From: Bodo saltans
Lineage: Eukaryota > Euglenozoa > Kinetoplastea > Eubodonida > Bodonidae
Direction of reading: 5' to 3'
Assembly: GCA_001460835.1 (NCBI GenBank)
Contig: CYKH01002252.1
Coordinates: 91,830 to 155,829 of the forward strand
Length of the DNA stretch: 64,000 nt
This document shows positions 43,295 to 54,807 of the stretch, piece by piece (within the stretch, counting starts at the first letter, position 1; each line of letters starts with the position of its first letter). The translations under genes were made by a program, and so were the position numbers. The notes beneath the pieces are model-generated. The model made no database searches. It was not told the DNA's origin and saw nothing but the letters and a program-made list of their open reading frames with translations.

Positions 43295-46200
43295 ATGGCA
43301 TCCCCAGATAGTGTTGAGACAATGAGCCGTCGTCGGCAAACGAAGTTCGCTGACGCCCTCGTCGATGAAGACAGCGAAGAAAACGTGAAAGTTTGCATCC
43401 GTGTTCGCCCCTTCAACAACCGTGAACTCGAGTTGCAGCGCCAACAAACAGACAAGCCTCTGCGAAGTGTCGTCGCAATGCCCGATGGAATGGCAGGTAA
43501 GGTTGCGTTCTACGAGAAGACAGCTGGGGCGTCGCAAGAGTACAAGCTAAGCGACGAGTTCCAATACACAAAGACGTTCTGGTCAGTTCCAGAGGAACAA
43601 CAGCCTCACGCGTTCGCGCCTGTCAGTCAAGAAGACGTGTACGAGTCCATTGGAAGGCCAATGGTGCGCTACGCAGTGGCTGGGTTCCATAATTGTGTGT
43701 TTGCCTATGGCCAAACGGGCAGTGGCAAGACGCACACTATGATGGGCGACTTCCATGGGCAGATGACACCCCTCGCAGGATTGATTCCACGTCTGTGCGT
43801 GGAGCTGTTTGAAAAGGTCGAGAACCTTCGTCGTGAGAAGCAAGAAGGCATTATCGCTACTGCTGAAGTGAAGCTCACTGCCATTGAAATCTACAACGAG
43901 CAAGTTAGAGATTTAATGTGGAAACTGACTCCAGGTCGCACCAAGAATCAATCCTTGAAGGTCCGTAAGCATCCAGCAGATGGCTCGTTTTTTGTCGATC
44001 AGCTTACCGTCGTTTCACCTGAGTCGTGGTTGGACTGTCTCAGACACATCGAAAAGGCAGTTTCTGAGCGTACGGTCGCCTCCACTGATATGAACGATGA
44101 AAGCAGTAGATCGCACTGCATTTTTCAACTGATATTAGAGCAGACAGAGACCGTTCATGTTGTCTCCGATGACCCAGATGAGCGATACACGAAGCCCGTC
44201 ACCAACAAAAAGGTCTCCAAGATTAACTTGGTAGATCTAGCTGGCTCTGAACGCCTGAAGAAAAGTAATGCGCAAGGACAGCAATTAAAAGAGGCTGCTG
44301 GTATTAACCTATCGCTGACAACGCTGAAGAAGGTCATCGACGCTCTCGTCCAAAATTCTAAAGAAATCAATCCCAAGAGGCAAGTGTTGGTTCCATTCCG
44401 AGAGTCCGCCCTTACATTGCTGCTCTCTGATAGTCTTGGTGGTAACAGCAAAACAACAATGATTGCTTGTGTCAGCCCGCACTATGACAATCAAGAAGAA
44501 ACGCTGCTTACGCTGCGGTACGCCAATCGCACCGGGACCATCGTAAATCACGCGAGGGTGAACGAAGACTCGGCAGCAAAGCAAGCCTTGCGCTTGAAAC
44601 ACGAAATTCTTGAGCTGCAGCGACGGTTGGCAGAAGGACCGATTGATGAAGAAGCAGACGACTTGCAAGATCAACTTGAACTTGGAAGAAGATCACTGAA
44701 GGAAATGGAAGAAACGAACCGCCGTGTCGCAGAAACTGCCGACTCCCTTCGGCGTCAGGCGAAGCAAGAAGAAGAAGCTCGCATGTCCTCCGCCTTCTAC
44801 AACTCCATGAAGATGGCACTCTTGCAGCAACAACGCGAGCAACTCGAGGTGAGTGCTGCGGAGATGGAGGAACGTATTCGTAGCAACAAGGAAGAGTCCG
44901 CAACCCTTTCTAACGCAATCAAAGATCATGAAGACTCAGAAAAGCTCCAGTTGAAGCAACTTGACAAACTACGGAAGGAAAGTCAAGCGATGAGAATCAA
45001 GGAACTTGATCAGGAACGGCAGAATGGCAAATTGTCACATGAGTCTCAAGAAATCCACCGTAAGTTGGAGAAGGAGATGGAGTTGCGGTACGCTCAGAAA
45101 ATGCTCAACTCGTATCGATTGAAGAAAGAAAATGAGCGCACGAAGTGCGAGCTCGAATCACTGGCGCAAGTACAAGAGCAGAAGCTGACTGTTGTGATCT
45201 CAGAAGCAGCTGAGCAATACGAACTACAAGTGAGACAATTTGCTGATGCAGAAACGATTGTGCAGCAGCGAACGTCCAAAATCGAGAAAGAGATTCACCA
45301 ATTGAATTTGAAAAGGGAAGAATGCGAGACTGAGGCCGCCCAACTCATGCAAAACATTCGCGATGCAGAGCGCCGCCATGTCGAAACCATCCACTCCATC
45401 GAACGAGACTGGAAGGACAGGTACCATCTACTTAAAGAAGGGTACGAAAAGGAAATTCTCATCATGGACGACGCCTTCTACAGCGCACAGAAGATGCGAG
45501 ATACAGACTTAGAGTCCATCCCACGTGACAGCACGACAGAGCAAGAAGATGCCATCAAGGAGTTGGAGAAGGAAGTGCAAAAGGCGGAAACGTATTGGAA
45601 CAAACGTGTGACCGACTTGGTGGAAGAGAAAGCCGACGAAATGGATCTCCTTATGAAAGAACAACGTGAGCTTCACGCAGTTGCCGCTGCCCGAAAACGA
45701 AAGGAGTATGAACATCGGATTGGTGACCTTGTCGCTCAGCTTCAGAGCATTCAATCGGTTGAGCGTGAAGTGGAGGAGTGCATTAGCTATCTAGAGCAAT
45801 CTGTTGCCCCGTTGATGCACTTGCACGACACGATTTCATCCAATGGTAACTCAGGTCCTGCTGGGCATTATGGAGATCGCGACGGCACCTCTTTCCTTCC
45901 CTCTCGCTACCAAGGCTACAGCCCAGAGTACATTGATTTCAGACGGCGACTTGTGCGATTTGACGGAGCTGTCGCATCGGTAAAGCCCATCGCGGTAGAT
46001 GCGTTCAGAGACCCAACGCAAAATGCTATGACGCAACTAGCAAGTCCATGGAGAACAAGGAAACCAGGAAGTGACGATCCTCTGGGCCCTGTATTTCCTT
46101 CGACGCCGGTAGGCCGTGTCAAGCTTAGCAAAACCACCTACGCCGATGCTCAAGCAAATCTAGTAGCCGCCATGGAGCAATCTGCACGCAAGACACAAGA

Positions 46201-46348
46201 GCCGATGGTGAGCCAAAGCCCAATGTTCCGAAGAGCAAGCAACTTGGTAAGCCGACCGTCATTTTCTAGTCCCGCTGCGACGTCGAGCAAAGGAAACAAC
46301 TCTTTGTCGCCGACGCCGTTGACACCTGGCTTCTCTTTCCGGCGTTGA
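43295..46348 (+). CDS. N-terminal-motor kinesin (kinesin-3-like)
   Basis: This protein has 1017 residues. The motor occupies about 28-425, with KVCIRVRPFNNRE, the P-loop GQTGSGKTHT near 139, switch I NDESSRSH near 268, switch II DLAGSE near 312, and the LRYANR motif near 408. The segment just after (IVNHARVNEDSAAKQ, then ALRLKHEILEL) resembles the kinesin-3 neck. Continuous coiled coil follows from about 430 to 850. The tail is Ser/Pro/Arg-rich and disordered, without an FHA, PH or other cargo domain. Compared with typical motors there are insertions after strand 1 and in the loop before LVDLAGSE. It is likely a plus-end motor; the cargo is unknown. Confidence 0.85.
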   Translation: MASPDSVETMSRRRQTKFADALVDEDSEENVKVCIRVRPFNNRELELQRQQTDKPLRSVVAMPDGMAGKVAFYEKTAGASQEYKLSDEFQYTKTFWSVPEEQQPHAFAPVSQEDVYESIGRPMVRYAVAGFHNCVFAYGQTGSGKTHTMMGDFHGQMTPLAGLIPRLCVELFEKVENLRREKQEGIIATAEVKLTAIEIYNEQVRDLMWKLTPGRTKNQSLKVRKHPADGSFFVDQLTVVSPESWLDCLRHIEKAVSERTVASTDMNDESSRSHCIFQLILEQTETVHVVSDDPDERYTKPVTNKKVSKINLVDLAGSERLKKSNAQGQQLKEAAGINLSLTTLKKVIDALVQNSKEINPKRQVLVPFRESALTLLLSDSLGGNSKTTMIACVSPHYDNQEETLLTLRYANRTGTIVNHARVNEDSAAKQALRLKHEILELQRRLAEGPIDEEADDLQDQLELGRRSLKEMEETNRRVAETADSLRRQAKQEEEARMSSAFYNSMKMALLQQQREQLEVSAAEMEERIRSNKEESATLSNAIKDHEDSEKLQLKQLDKLRKESQAMRIKELDQERQNGKLSHESQEIHRKLEKEMELRYAQKMLNSYRLKKENERTKCELESLAQVQEQKLTVVISEAAEQYELQVRQFADAETIVQQRTSKIEKEIHQLNLKREECETEAAQLMQNIRDAERRHVETIHSIERDWKDRYHLLKEGYEKEILIMDDAFYSAQKMRDTDLESIPRDSTTEQEDAIKELEKEVQKAETYWNKRVTDLVEEKADEMDLLMKEQRELHAVAAARKRKEYEHRIGDLVAQLQSIQSVEREVEECISYLEQSVAPLMHLHDTISSNGNSGPAGHYGDRDGTSFLPSRYQGYSPEYIDFRRRLVRFDGAVASVKPIAVDAFRDPTQNAMTQLASPWRTRKPGSDDPLGPVFPSTPVGRVKLSKTTYADAQANLVAAMEQSARKTQEPMVSQSPMFRRASNLVSRPSFSSPAATSSKGNNSLSPTPLTPGFSFRR

Positions 46349-50023: not shown

Positions 50024-50179
50024 AGTGACGAAATGAGTGATGGTGTTCTTTAAGAAACAACAAAAAGGAGAACTAGATGCTGACGTAATGCTTTGTCTTA
50101 TGGGTGCGTGATGTACTTCTTACCTTTTTTGTGGTTGGACATAGCGGAAAAAAGAATCCTAAACAAAGAAAAGCAAATT

Positions 50180-53100
50180 ATGTCAGTTCAAGTGGCTGTT
50201 CGCAGTCGCCCATTGAACCGCGACGAAACGGACTGTGGGTCCAGCATTATCGTGCGCATGAATCAAGGCCAAGTGGAAGTGATCAACTCATCTCAAGGTC
50301 AAGGTCAAAAGTTTAACTTCGATCACGCCCTGTGGTCTACTGACGCGGTCGTCCCTGGTAATAAGAACCCCGTGGCAAGTCAAGAATCTGTGTTCGAGGC
50401 AGTCGGCCGCCAGACCTTGGAGCACACGTTTACCGGGTACAATTCATGCATCTTTGCCTACGGACAGACTGGTAGTGGTAAGACGTACTCCATGATGGGC
50501 TCTGCGTCCGACCTTGGACTTGTTCCTCGCATTGCAAGTCATATCTTTGAGCTTGCGTCGCAGCAGCAAGCCAACGGTGCCGAGGTATGCGTGGAAGTTT
50601 CATTTTTAGAGATCTACAACGAGCGTGTGCGTTGCTTGCTGAATCCGTCAAAGCAGAGCAGCGCTGATGGCAGCGAAGACACTCACCCCCTTCGCGTTCG
50701 TGAGCACCCCGTTCATGGCCCTTACGTCGAGGGTCTCGCAAAACTCGTCGTCACCAGCAAAGAGCAATTTCTTAACCTCATGAACGATGGCAACAAGCTC
50801 CGAACCACCGCCGCGACGCTCATGAACGCAACGAGCAGCCGCTCCCATGCGCTGTTTCAAGTTGCTGTAACGCAGAAGCTTGTCAAGGGCTCTGTTCAAA
50901 CTACCACAAAATCCAAGATGAACCTTGTCGATCTTGCCGGCAGCGAGCGTGCCACGAAGACCAACGCTACAGGCGCTCGTCTCACCGAAGGCGCGAACAT
51001 TAACAAAAGTCTCTCGGCGCTCGGTCTTGTCATTAGCAACCTTGCCGAAGAGTTCGAAAGCGGCAAGCAGCGCCACATTCCTTATCGCGACTCAGTCCTC
51101 ACGTGGATTCTCAAGGACAACTTAGGCGGCAACTCCAAGACTGTGATGCTCGCCGCCATCAGTCCTGCATCTGCGCAGTACGAAGAAACCATGAGCACCC
51201 TGCGCTACGCTGAGCGCGCCAAGAAGATTCAGAATAAGGCCCAGATCAATCAGTCGAATAACAATGAAGTGGTTGCAGCACTTCAAAAGGAGATCGAAGC
51301 CCTACGAATGCAGCTGAAGTCAACCGCCGACGCTGACAAGAGGGGCGCACTTGCCGAGCAGCTGGAAATTTCTGAGGCGTTTGAGCACGAGCTTGCTCAA
51401 TCCCTCGAGCAGAAGCTGCAGCAGACGAACTCCCTTATGGCCGAGCGTGAGGCGAAGATGGCCCAGCTTCAAGTGGAACTTGACCAACAGAAGCACATGG
51501 TGGAGAACCTGAGTCAAATCAACAGTGAGAAGGACAAGAAGATCGCTGACCTGCTTGGGAAAATCGCAGAACGTGAAACCTCTTCCTCCAAGACAAGCAC
51601 CAGCGTTCATGATGAAATTGATCGCCTTCGACTCCAAATCGCAGAGCTCGAAGTACAACGAGACGAAGAGGATGCCAAGGAGAAGGCACGACAAAAAGAA
51701 GCCGCAAATGCACGACTCCGCCAGGAAGATTTAGGCAACGTTGGTGCTGCTGCCGCAGGTGCAAGTGGTAAGGTCTCTGTTCGAGCACTTGCACGTGCCT
51801 TCGAATCGCATGGAAACGTCAAGCAAGAAGTCAAGAAGACTGTCAACGACGTCCCTGAGCCTAAGCGTCTGCCCCATATTCTGCAGCAGGCTCTCGCCAA
51901 GAATCAACCCGCAGCCACAACCGCCAGCAGTGCCGCGGCTACCAGCAGCGCTGCAGAGCCTGAACTTGAGCTCGAAGAGGAAAATATTCTTGAGAACTTG
52001 GAAGATGATATTCAAGTTGATGAACCAGCAGTGGAGGATCAAGAGCTCGACGATGACGTTGCCATCGATGATGACGACGACATTGCCCTTGATGATGACG
52101 AGCCTGCTGCAGAGGCCGCTGCGGACGATGACGAAATTGCGGTTGATGACGAAGAGCCTGGGGAGGACAACGGAGACCTTCACGTCGACGATGATGAAAT
52201 CGAGCTCGAAGACGAAGAGCACAAGGACGATGATGGAGTTGAGCTTGATGATGACGATATTGAGCTCGATGAAGGAGAAGGCGCCGCAGCAGTCGCTGTG
52301 GAAGAGCCAGTGGAAGTTGCCTCGCCGACAAAGGTTGTGAAGTCGGACGATGTGGAGCTTGCATCATCGGAGGCCCACCACGTTGAACCGACTGCGCAAA
52401 GTGGAGCATCAACCAGTGCAGATATCGATCAGCCAATCAACAAACCAGCTGCTGGTGGTGGCGAAGAATCTGCACAGCAGCAACGTGCACGTGCTCAAAC
52501 GATCACGGCCAAGAAAGCTGCTACCACCCCGGCCGCTGCCGCCCCCACTGGGGCCATCACCGCGCTAGCCATCCCCTCGCATGCCCTCCCTAACAACCGA
52601 TTCCTGCGTGAGCCCTTCAAGGTGATCAAGATTGACGAAGGTGCTCTCATTGGCGGGAAGAAGGAGCGCATTTGGGACGTTGACTTCTTCGGCAAGAAGT
52701 TTGCCAACCTCGACATGACCGGATACGAATCGTTCTCCCAGCCCAGCTCCAATCTATTCCGTGTGGAAAAGGACCAGCAGAACTCAAAGAAGTTGACCAT
52801 GTACTTCTTTGACGCTGCACATCCTTATGATCTGGAGTTCACCTCCACCGAACGCCGTCAACGATTTTATGAGCTCGCCATGCTCCAACGGCGCAACTCG
52901 ATCATGTGGTGCCCATCCCTCTGCCCAGAGGGAGAAAACGACGTCATTCTCAACATCCAAGGAACTACCATTGACCGCCCCAACGGGAAGGTGGTAAAGG
53001 CTAAGGGCGAGGTGAAGTTCATGATTGCTCGCATGCCGTATGAAGTAATCGACTTGTACTACGGCTGCTTTTCGCTCCAAGAGAAGCCCCTCCCTCGCAG

Positions 53101-53242
53101 CGCAGCGATGCTTGCATCGTTCATCCCGCGCACGATGCACGAAGTGTACGTCATTGGCGTCACTGATGTTCCAAAGGAATTGATTGGAAATGCGGAGATT
53201 CGCTCCAAGAGAAGCCCCTCCCTCGCAGCGCAGCGATGCTAG
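50180..53242 (+). CDS. Kinesin-3-type motor, 5' part of an interrupted composite kinesin gene
   Basis: The motor is at residues 1 to about 345: VQVAVRSRPLN, P-loop GQTGSGKT at 95-102, SSRSHA, DLAGSE, LGGNSKT, and LRYAERAKKIQN. The VREHP..GPYVEGL phrase is typical of kinesin-3. Coiled coil spans about 355-560 and a very acidic Asp/Glu stretch about 620-730. A PH-like domain lies at about 805-905 (FKVIKIDEGALIGGKKERIW ... ERRQRFYELAMLQRR). From about 915 an inositol-5-phosphatase-like domain begins and is cut off when the frame is lost in a 128-bp tandem duplication (53071-53327). The start is at ATG 50180; an upstream in-frame ATG at 50093 is probably leader. The last 14 residues are out of the original frame. 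The true protein probably continues in 53236-54807. Confidence 0.85.
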   Translation: MSVQVAVRSRPLNRDETDCGSSIIVRMNQGQVEVINSSQGQGQKFNFDHALWSTDAVVPGNKNPVASQESVFEAVGRQTLEHTFTGYNSCIFAYGQTGSGKTYSMMGSASDLGLVPRIASHIFELASQQQANGAEVCVEVSFLEIYNERVRCLLNPSKQSSADGSEDTHPLRVREHPVHGPYVEGLAKLVVTSKEQFLNLMNDGNKLRTTAATLMNATSSRSHALFQVAVTQKLVKGSVQTTTKSKMNLVDLAGSERATKTNATGARLTEGANINKSLSALGLVISNLAEEFESGKQRHIPYRDSVLTWILKDNLGGNSKTVMLAAISPASAQYEETMSTLRYAERAKKIQNKAQINQSNNNEVVAALQKEIEALRMQLKSTADADKRGALAEQLEISEAFEHELAQSLEQKLQQTNSLMAEREAKMAQLQVELDQQKHMVENLSQINSEKDKKIADLLGKIAERETSSSKTSTSVHDEIDRLRLQIAELEVQRDEEDAKEKARQKEAANARLRQEDLGNVGAAAAGASGKVSVRALARAFESHGNVKQEVKKTVNDVPEPKRLPHILQQALAKNQPAATTASSAAATSSAAEPELELEEENILENLEDDIQVDEPAVEDQELDDDVAIDDDDDIALDDDEPAAEAAADDDEIAVDDEEPGEDNGDLHVDDDEIELEDEEHKDDDGVELDDDDIELDEGEGAAAVAVEEPVEVASPTKVVKSDDVELASSEAHHVEPTAQSGASTSADIDQPINKPAAGGGEESAQQQRARAQTITAKKAATTPAAAAPTGAITALAIPSHALPNNRFLREPFKVIKIDEGALIGGKKERIWDVDFFGKKFANLDMTGYESFSQPSSNLFRVEKDQQNSKKLTMYFFDAAHPYDLEFTSTERRQRFYELAMLQRRNSIMWCPSLCPEGENDVILNIQGTTIDRPNGKVVKAKGEVKFMIARMPYEVIDLYYGCFSLQEKPLPRSAAMLASFIPRTMHEVYVIGVTDVPKELIGNAEIRSKRSPSLAAQRC

Positions 53243-53327
53243 CGTCGTTCATCCCCCGCACGATGCACGAAGTGTACGTCATTGGTGTCACTGATGTTCC
53301 AAAGGAATTGATTGGAAATGCGGAGAT
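53071..53327 (+). repeat. 128-bp perfect-length tandem duplication in the kinesin gene
   Basis: 53071-53198 and 53199-53326 are head-to-tail copies with four mismatches, all at third codon positions and all silent (Leu, Ala, Pro, Gly). 128 is not a multiple of three, so the duplication alone breaks the reading frame; removing either copy would rejoin it. Confidence 0.95.
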
Positions 53328-54807
53328 AGCCAACTACCTCCTCTCGTACCTTGGCCCCTCGATGTACTTTGTATTGGCCAACACTGCCGTTGACGGAAAG
53401 ACAAAGACCTCCAACAACGTGATGGTGGTGATTGTCCGCCGCTCATTTATCGTTCGCGTCTCTCACATCGAAGCAATGGAGATTGCCCCTGTCCGCAAGG
53501 AAGGCGTCACAAAGACGGATTTCACCGGTGTTGGCTGCTCCATGAAGATCAATGAGTGCTCCATTGGCGTGATCCTTATTAACGCAAACCCCGCCGTGAC
53601 GGACCCAACCCTTCGTGCCGGATGCATTCGAGGATTGATGGCGAACTTGCCATTCGGAAACACGCAAGTTGACATCGGTGCTCGGTTTGACTATCTTATC
53701 TGCTCTGGTAGCCTCGGCTTCCGTGGAGATTTTACAGAGGCGGATATGTTGAAGAAGCAAATGAAGGCAGGTAACGTCATGTCTGACTTCGGAGAAGCAG
53801 AGCCCCATGCAAGCCTCACCAGCACCACCAACCCTATTCGTATCTTGAGCGCAGTTCGCCCTCGAGTGTGCCGCATGGATGTGAAGCAATATCAAACCTC
53901 CCGTGCTATGTCGGTGCCGAACTCCTTTATCACCGCTGATATCTTCTGCCAACGCGCATTCCTTAGTACCTTCGGTGAGCAGGTCCCTCGCACTCAATTC
54001 ATCTTCACATCCCTCAGTGTCCTGGGACACCGCATTCCCCACATCAATAGCGCCGATATTGTGATCAATGGCGACTGGGCCGAATCGTCTCCCCTCGTGG
54101 TTCCAATCACGAAGCAAGGCGAGTCGTACGTTGCCACTGGAAAGGTCATTCCCCCCATTGTCCCTGTCGTGAGCAATTTTGACTTCCTACGCCTGCAATC
54201 GCTGAGCTTCACCATCATGGCGATGCTCCCTGCTTCCCGCGAAAAGAAGAAGATTGTTATCGCGTCTGCTACGCTGCCCCTTAAGAATTCCTTCTCATTA
54301 GGCGAAGCAGTTGACTTCTCTGTTCCTTTGTACTACCGCGGCTGCACTGTCGGTTTCCTCAACGGATCTATTCTGCAAGTACATGCAGAGAAGAACGACG
54401 CTGATATGCAATCTGCCGGACTTCAGGCTGGTGAGCGTGACGCTCATGTTGTATCCTGTTTCGAGAACCAAATCGTTGATGCGCAAGGTACTTGGGTCTC
54501 CGCGATGAATGATGCCCACAGTGCATTCAACTGGAGCTCTGCGGCCAATCCCAGTGTTGAGGCCCGCCGTGAATCATTCCAGCTACCTGACGCTGACAAG
54601 TGGAAGTGGCTCACTCAATGGCGTCATGAGGCACGTGCTGATAACGTTGACGGTTGGACCTACTCGTCTGACTTCAAAAGCCCTTTCGAAGTCCGCAAAT
54701 CGAAGGCGCATCACGTTCGCCGGCGCCGTTGGACTCGTGTGATGCAAGCCGAAGATGCACTCACACTGCACGCTTATCTTGAGTCGCTCCACAAGCAAGC
54801 ATCATAG
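53236..54807 (+). CDS. 3' part of the composite kinesin: degenerate 5-phosphatase, C2-like and dysferlin-type domains
   Basis: These 523 residues continue the upstream kinesin. Residues 1 to about 200 line up with the inositol polyphosphate 5-phosphatase fold: EVYVIGVTD where active enzymes have IGLQE, then TDFTGVGCSM for GNKG, ILINANPAV for the N.HL segment, and FDYLICSGSLGFRGDF for FWLGDLNYR. Every catalytic or metal residue I can locate is changed, so it is a pseudo-enzyme. About 250-380 reads as a C2-like beta-sandwich (QFIFTSLSVLG, FDFLRLQSLSFTIMA, ASATLPLKNSF, GFLNGSILQVHA). About 445-500 has the dysferlin-type ending WTYSSDF..PF and RRRRWTR. The ATG at 53236 lies inside the second repeat copy and is probably not a natural start. 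Confidence 0.75.
   Translation: MLASFIPRTMHEVYVIGVTDVPKELIGNAEIANYLLSYLGPSMYFVLANTAVDGKTKTSNNVMVVIVRRSFIVRVSHIEAMEIAPVRKEGVTKTDFTGVGCSMKINECSIGVILINANPAVTDPTLRAGCIRGLMANLPFGNTQVDIGARFDYLICSGSLGFRGDFTEADMLKKQMKAGNVMSDFGEAEPHASLTSTTNPIRILSAVRPRVCRMDVKQYQTSRAMSVPNSFITADIFCQRAFLSTFGEQVPRTQFIFTSLSVLGHRIPHINSADIVINGDWAESSPLVVPITKQGESYVATGKVIPPIVPVVSNFDFLRLQSLSFTIMAMLPASREKKKIVIASATLPLKNSFSLGEAVDFSVPLYYRGCTVGFLNGSILQVHAEKNDADMQSAGLQAGERDAHVVSCFENQIVDAQGTWVSAMNDAHSAFNWSSAANPSVEARRESFQLPDADKWKWLTQWRHEARADNVDGWTYSSDFKSPFEVRKSKAHHVRRRRWTRVMQAEDALTLHAYLESLHKQAS

Follow-up and report, generated by a model that had tools for sequence, protein, structure and literature searches.

A 64,000-nucleotide stretch of the Bodo saltans genome (assembly GCA_001460835.1, contig CYKH01002252.1, positions 91,830 to 155,829 of the forward strand; the whole stretch is called the window here) carries a kinesin gene whose tail includes an inositol-5-phosphatase domain that appears to have lost catalysis while keeping its fold. 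A single gene would encode a kinesin-3 motor and a tail of PH-like, pseudo-5-phosphatase, C2 and DysF domains. We hold this domain order and the pseudoenzyme status of the phosphatase to be very nearly certain. The best explanation of the whole, and in our judgement a probable one, is a kinesin-3 with a SHIP-like PH/5-phosphatase/C2 core and a DysF domain, in which the dead phosphatase serves as the scaffold of a membrane tether. Its computed basis is the domain order, homology, the loss of catalytic residues and the conservation of the dead domain; membrane binding by the tail, and the lipid, organelle, direction and regulation, are what we infer. The gene has the following parts:

50180..54807, + strand, whole kinesin gene, a single 1499-aa protein in the homologue P0001, broken here by a 128-base repeat
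50201..51229, + strand, kinesin-3 motor domain with P-loop, switch I and switch II (Pfam, solved structures, motifs)
52100..52561, + strand, poorly conserved linker
52562..53023, + strand, PH_29 PH-like domain (Pfam; predicted model with seven strands and a C-terminal helix)
53024..53973, + strand, pseudo inositol-5-phosphatase domain of SHIP type, spanning the repeat (profiles, predicted structure, motif columns)
53071..53198, + strand, repeat copy 1, 128 bases
53199..53326, + strand, repeat copy 2, differing from copy 1 at 4 of 128 bases
53977..54387, + strand, C2 domain, placed after the phosphatase fold as in the SHIP1/2 phosphatase-C2 unit (model and profile)
54436..54753, + strand, DysF domain of TECPR1/dysferlin type (Pfam Pex24p, alignment, predicted fold)

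The window's list of open reading frames (ORFs) divides the gene into ORF1 (50111-53242) and ORF2 (53236-54807). Relatives sharing the tail were collected by a search with ORF1 residues 810-1025, which gave 28 (the tails), and phosphatase relatives by a search with a protein encoded on another contig of this genome, C758, which gave P0029-P0057 and others.

Three of the domains, the motor, PH_29 and Pex24p, are already marked by Pfam. Neither the pseudo-phosphatase nor C2 is marked in the Pfam scan of the window protein or among the domains precomputed for the 28 relatives, and when ORF2 was compared by itself with solved sequences, no 5-phosphatase came up (best TECPR1, E 0.12; next an exopolyphosphatase, E 0.64). 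ORF2 alone being insufficient, the 5-phosphatase was detected through its phosphatase relatives, by profiles and a predicted structure. The profile of the tails after PH_29 (28 rows) matched that of the phosphatases (29 rows, P0058 left out) with probability 99.6 and E 1.4e-24 over 386 aligned columns; five column-shuffled controls and one reversed control reached at most 1.2%, and two cross-domain pairings 0.3%. The predicted structure suggests a 5-phosphatase fold with a C2 domain following. The preliminary description, made from the window's letters alone, had proposed a structural check for these two folds, and model and profile comparison both matched them.

That description had also listed a series of motif changes (QE to TD, the GxKG segment to DFTGVG, the HL segment to NANPA, GDxNYR to GSLGFR), all of which lie at corresponding aligned columns. 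We scored six core columns, whose residues we take to be catalytic: the Asn of GTFN, the Glu of QE, the Asp and Asn of GDFN, the Asp of CDR and the His of SEH. The tails keep none (18 rows) or one (10 rows) of the six; the phosphatases keep six (21 rows), five (7) or four (1). The Tyr-Arg pair of PTYR, presumably part of the reader of the 4-phosphate, is kept whole in 0 of 28 tails and in 29 of 29 phosphatases. Around the last motifs the alignment is gapped and less certain; the segment replacing SEHxPV has no His in 21 of 28 tails, those where a pattern located the segment. These core-residue counts and the missing His make it extremely improbable that the domain remains a phosphatase by using other residues, as its retained predicted fold might allow.

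The dead 5-phosphatase scaffold in a composite kinesin, as first proposed, is borne out by profile comparison, by the predicted structure and by the enzyme counterpart that this genome also encodes. The accompanying proposal that this domain reads phosphoinositides is not supported, the catalytic residues being gone and the Tyr-Arg pair lost in every tail. It is the weak step because the pocket with which the enzyme reads and cuts appears dismantled; a scaffold or protein-binding role fits the domain better. Any lipid reading by the tail would more plausibly fall to PH_29, C2 and DysF.

The enzyme counterpart was found through PH_29, which occurs at three places in the genome: the window gene, C758 and C707. 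On both other contigs a 5-phosphatase match follows it. In the C758 protein, PH_29 and Exo_endo_phos2 (E 9e-54) were matched and SHIP C2 weakly (E 0.01); its core matches the SHIP2 sequence at E 1.5e-46. Over the 621 residues searched it is 100% identical to P0029, which is named 'inositol 5-phosphatase 1, putative [Bodo saltans]'. P0029-P0057, the named ones among the matches being from Bodo and Trypanosoma, are colinear with the kinesin tail across PH_29, phosphatase and C2 and also occur in this genome; the PH_29 profiles of the two groups matched at 99.8. Unlike the kinesin, every one of the 29 lacks all three motor motifs, and 21 keep the full catalytic set. In place of a motor, C758 (L018:948-8849) has a long stretch of WWK-type repeats ahead of its PH_29/5-phosphatase/C2 core, seen by eye and without a Pfam match. 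Compared with the phosphatase-C2 core of SHIP1/SHIP2 (INPP5D/INPPL1), the window tail lacks the catalytic and PTYR residues, is fused to a motor and has DysF added. Cimex nitrophorin, which we take to be an insect-saliva haem protein without a motor, differs from the window protein in that respect.

Three further proteins of kinesin type (P0058, P0061 and P0062) resemble the window kinesin in having a motor match, PH_29 and a 5-phosphatase, which in them is still detectable by Pfam. They differ from the window tail in keeping 3, 4 and 4 of the six core residues, respectively, and in having no DysF match. P0058 ends early. The P0061 record holds the second half of the motor only, and the P0062 motor is barely recognisable (Pfam E 1.8e-4) and its phosphatase altered; both lack the PTYR pair. 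An ordinary PH domain is also present in P0061 and, below the Pfam cut-off, in P0058. By eye, P0058 and P0061 seemed to carry an FHA domain as well; Pfam gave it no support, and we do not claim it. Taken with the 28 tails, these proteins mean that every motor-linked copy seen has an altered active site, to a varying degree. In a tree of the tail regions (61 rows, P0060 left out) the 28 tails form one clade (100/100) with a long stem of 3.18, and P0058, P0061 and P0062 another (100/100), with a long-branch warning on this tree.

The two ORFs are best read as one gene. P0001 is 99.8% identical to the window gene, runs uninterrupted for 1499 aa and starts at the ATG at 50180, the start chosen in the preliminary description; the region described there, with both its ORFs, is real. 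The frame shifts between the ORFs because the repeat length, 128, is not divisible by 3. The copies stand in direct tandem, and all four mismatches are synonymous, giving the identical 42 residues from each copy. Such synonymous-only differences fit two working alleles joined end to end. The frame break is most likely an assembly join, and the repeat is most simply read as the ends of two allelic contigs placed one after the other. The preliminary description had left room for two separate genes. Two genuine genes, or a gene truly frameshifted in this strain, would explain why the assembly frame is open only as two pieces, but both pieces are matched within one protein in 28 of 28 tail relatives, P0001 among them, and similar repeated coding stretches occur on another contig. 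With the tandem repeat and its synonymous differences, we reject the separate-genes reading and regard either version as very unlikely.

Repeats were also seen elsewhere. On that other contig of the assembly, C717 (11000-17000), repeated coding stretches resembling overlap-joined contig ends were noted by eye in translated frames. The window holds four further repeat families of 41-300 bases with spacings up to 1043, among them near-identical direct repeats (98-100%) at short spacing (61466-61765/62509-62808; 29132-29254/29316-29438; 63229-63315/63495-63583). Upstream on the same strand, with two ORFs intervening, lies a different kinesin of 1017 aa (43295-46348).

The motor domain in ORF1 (Pfam E 1.8e-108) appears closest to kinesin-3, as the preliminary description had it. 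This assignment is a score ranking against solved structures, in which the top 24 matches, from 370 to 295 bits, are KIF13B, KIF1A (one a KIF1A/KIF5C fusion), 'kinesin-3' and KIF14, which we take to be a kinesin-3; the first match clearly from another family is OSM-3 at 259 bits. In a pattern search of the 23 proteins longer than 1200 aa, P0001 included, 21 had the P-loop and both switch motifs; the exceptions were P0012 and P0022. In P0001 the motifs are intact, and ORF1 has identical letters there. Likeness to KIF1A, KIF13B and Unc104 lies in the motor sequence. Beyond it the window protein has PH_29, pseudo-5-phosphatase, C2 and DysF; no standard PH domain (PF00169) was matched in Pfam, and no FHA domain at E up to 5, a search that a diverged FHA could escape. 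Loop 12 (EEFESGKQRH) has no run of lysines such as we take loop 12 of KIF1A to have. The acidic linker described earlier was found again (42% Asp plus Glu in its first 100 residues). The coiled coil described with it was not: a crude heptad test gave a score no better than shuffles, 61 of 200 of which came as high.

The other tail domains of the preliminary description were recovered. Its PH-like domain is Pfam PF25404 PH_29 (E 8.7e-82 in ORF1). A basic motif in PH_29 was counted and not used; it is present in 23 of 28 tails in loose and strict forms, and in the phosphatases plus P0058 in 20 of 30 in loose and 3 of 30 in strict form. The C2 domain, found by profile comparison and in the predicted structure, directly follows the phosphatase fold, the SHIP-type arrangement. 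The dysferlin-type C-terminus corresponds to a Pex24p match near the ORF2 end (E 1.8e-7), and prediction supports a DysF fold with a Trp/Arg stack in which one named Arg position is Met. In an alignment with TECPR1/dysferlin DysF domains the position of TECPR1 R167 is this Met, and that of W154 is Lys. Sphingomyelin binding by TECPR1 requires W154, a residue at the tip of its DysF domain, according to PMC10476172. With Lys there, the TECPR1 ligand (sphingomyelin) is not expected for the window protein.

Conservation across the relatives points to a dead domain that still appears to be under constraint. Mean identity to P0001 over 22 long relatives is 0.64 for the motor, 0.67 for PH_29, 0.58 for the pseudo-phosphatase, 0.46 for C2, 0.47 for DysF, 0.36 for the stalk and 0.24 for the linker. 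Many relatives, trypanosome ones included, seem to keep much the same tail. Named records among the 28 are mostly 'Unc104-like kinesin'; T. brucei is absent from the names of these matches, which implies no absence from T. brucei. The same sort of name, 'putative Unc104-like kinesin', is carried in the database by four Trypanosoma proteins (P0045, P0046, P0048 and P0049) that have no motor motifs; they are PH_29/5-phosphatase proteins, probably misnamed via the shared tail.

We read the window protein as a membrane-gripping kinesin-3 because its motor motifs are intact and it is closest to KIF13B and KIF1A. In the 5-phosphatase, catalysis would be lost, substrate reading probably lost too and the fold retained, leaving a rigid scaffold that could keep the surfaces of the PH-like, C2 and DysF domains together in a single tether facing the membrane; once gripped, the membrane would be hauled along microtubules by the motor. 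Lipid binding by the tail is suggested by domain type only, and a tethering role for the tail is a little more probable than its absence. The dead phosphatase could instead be a protein-binding platform by which the tail attaches to a receptor protein or to some structure of the cytoskeleton, lipid being minor. The dismantled pocket would suit this reading, which is a real but minority possibility given that PH-like, C2 and DysF domains, module types that often meet membranes, share the tail.

Several points weigh against a membrane-hauling kinesin. The phosphatase pocket appears to be without the residues of a lipid reader, the PH fold of PH_29 is suggested by its Pfam PH-like family and predicted strands and helix only, and the DysF tip is unlike the sphingomyelin-binding tip of TECPR1. 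A DysF-type ending is found in 24 of 28 relatives, and with four lacking it DysF is not essential to the family. Nor is the tail linked to a working motor in every relative, as Pfam finds a motor in 23 of 28. P0020 and P0027 have no motor and keep the DysF-type ending; P0014 has a motor and stops after C2; P0011, P0015 and P0018, short proteins that seem complete, start past the motor and run no further than C2; they may be tail-only forms that also lack DysF, or their gene models may be incomplete. Motor identity to P0001 falls to 0.37 in P0012 and to 0.40 in P0022, which comes from a Tbor-labelled transcriptome, with PH_29 and pseudo-phosphatase of the two at 0.54-0.63. Switch I is gone and switch II altered in P0012, and P0022 shows milder changes; their P-loops are off the usual kinesin form yet match G-x4-G-K-S/T, which we take to be the general P-loop pattern. 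Altered motors and short forms together imply a tail function not requiring a normal motor, and speak against a plain transporter in every lineage.

Such motorless relatives (P0011, P0015, P0018) would suit a tail that regulates its phosphatase relative, the C758 type of protein, as pseudoenzyme partner or decoy, as would the colinearity of the two and their presence in one genome. We think this improbable, since Leishmania and Leptomonas are among the named kinesin matches but not the named phosphatase matches, though many matches are unnamed and the searches were limited. Somewhat less doubtful, and still speculative, is that a kinesin-3 was fused long ago to a phosphoinositide 5-phosphatase like SHIP, and that the resulting pseudoenzyme tail links transport with the turnover of phosphoinositides through partners or membranes shared with the active relative, the motor being decayed or absent in some lineages and the tail kept.

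Whichever function holds, we class the protein as a variant of kinesin-3 and not as a 5-phosphatase. No published kinesin with a 5-phosphatase-type tail was found in searches of open-licence papers, including PMC2867816 (its supplementary domain tables lay outside the search), PMC10476172 and PMC10380299. A survey of 45 eukaryotes found 1300 of 1624 kinesins to have no recognisable domain beyond the motor, according to PMC2867816. Motorless phosphatases misnamed as kinesins are flagged here, and a pseudoenzyme is placed in an unexpected setting. For a widely conserved kinetoplastid kinesin the tail is now defined, with a pseudo-5-phosphatase carried by a motor protein; since most surveyed kinesins have no recognisable domain beyond the motor, having this tail decoded, and an enzyme relative of it encoded in one genome with it, makes cargo recognition testable.
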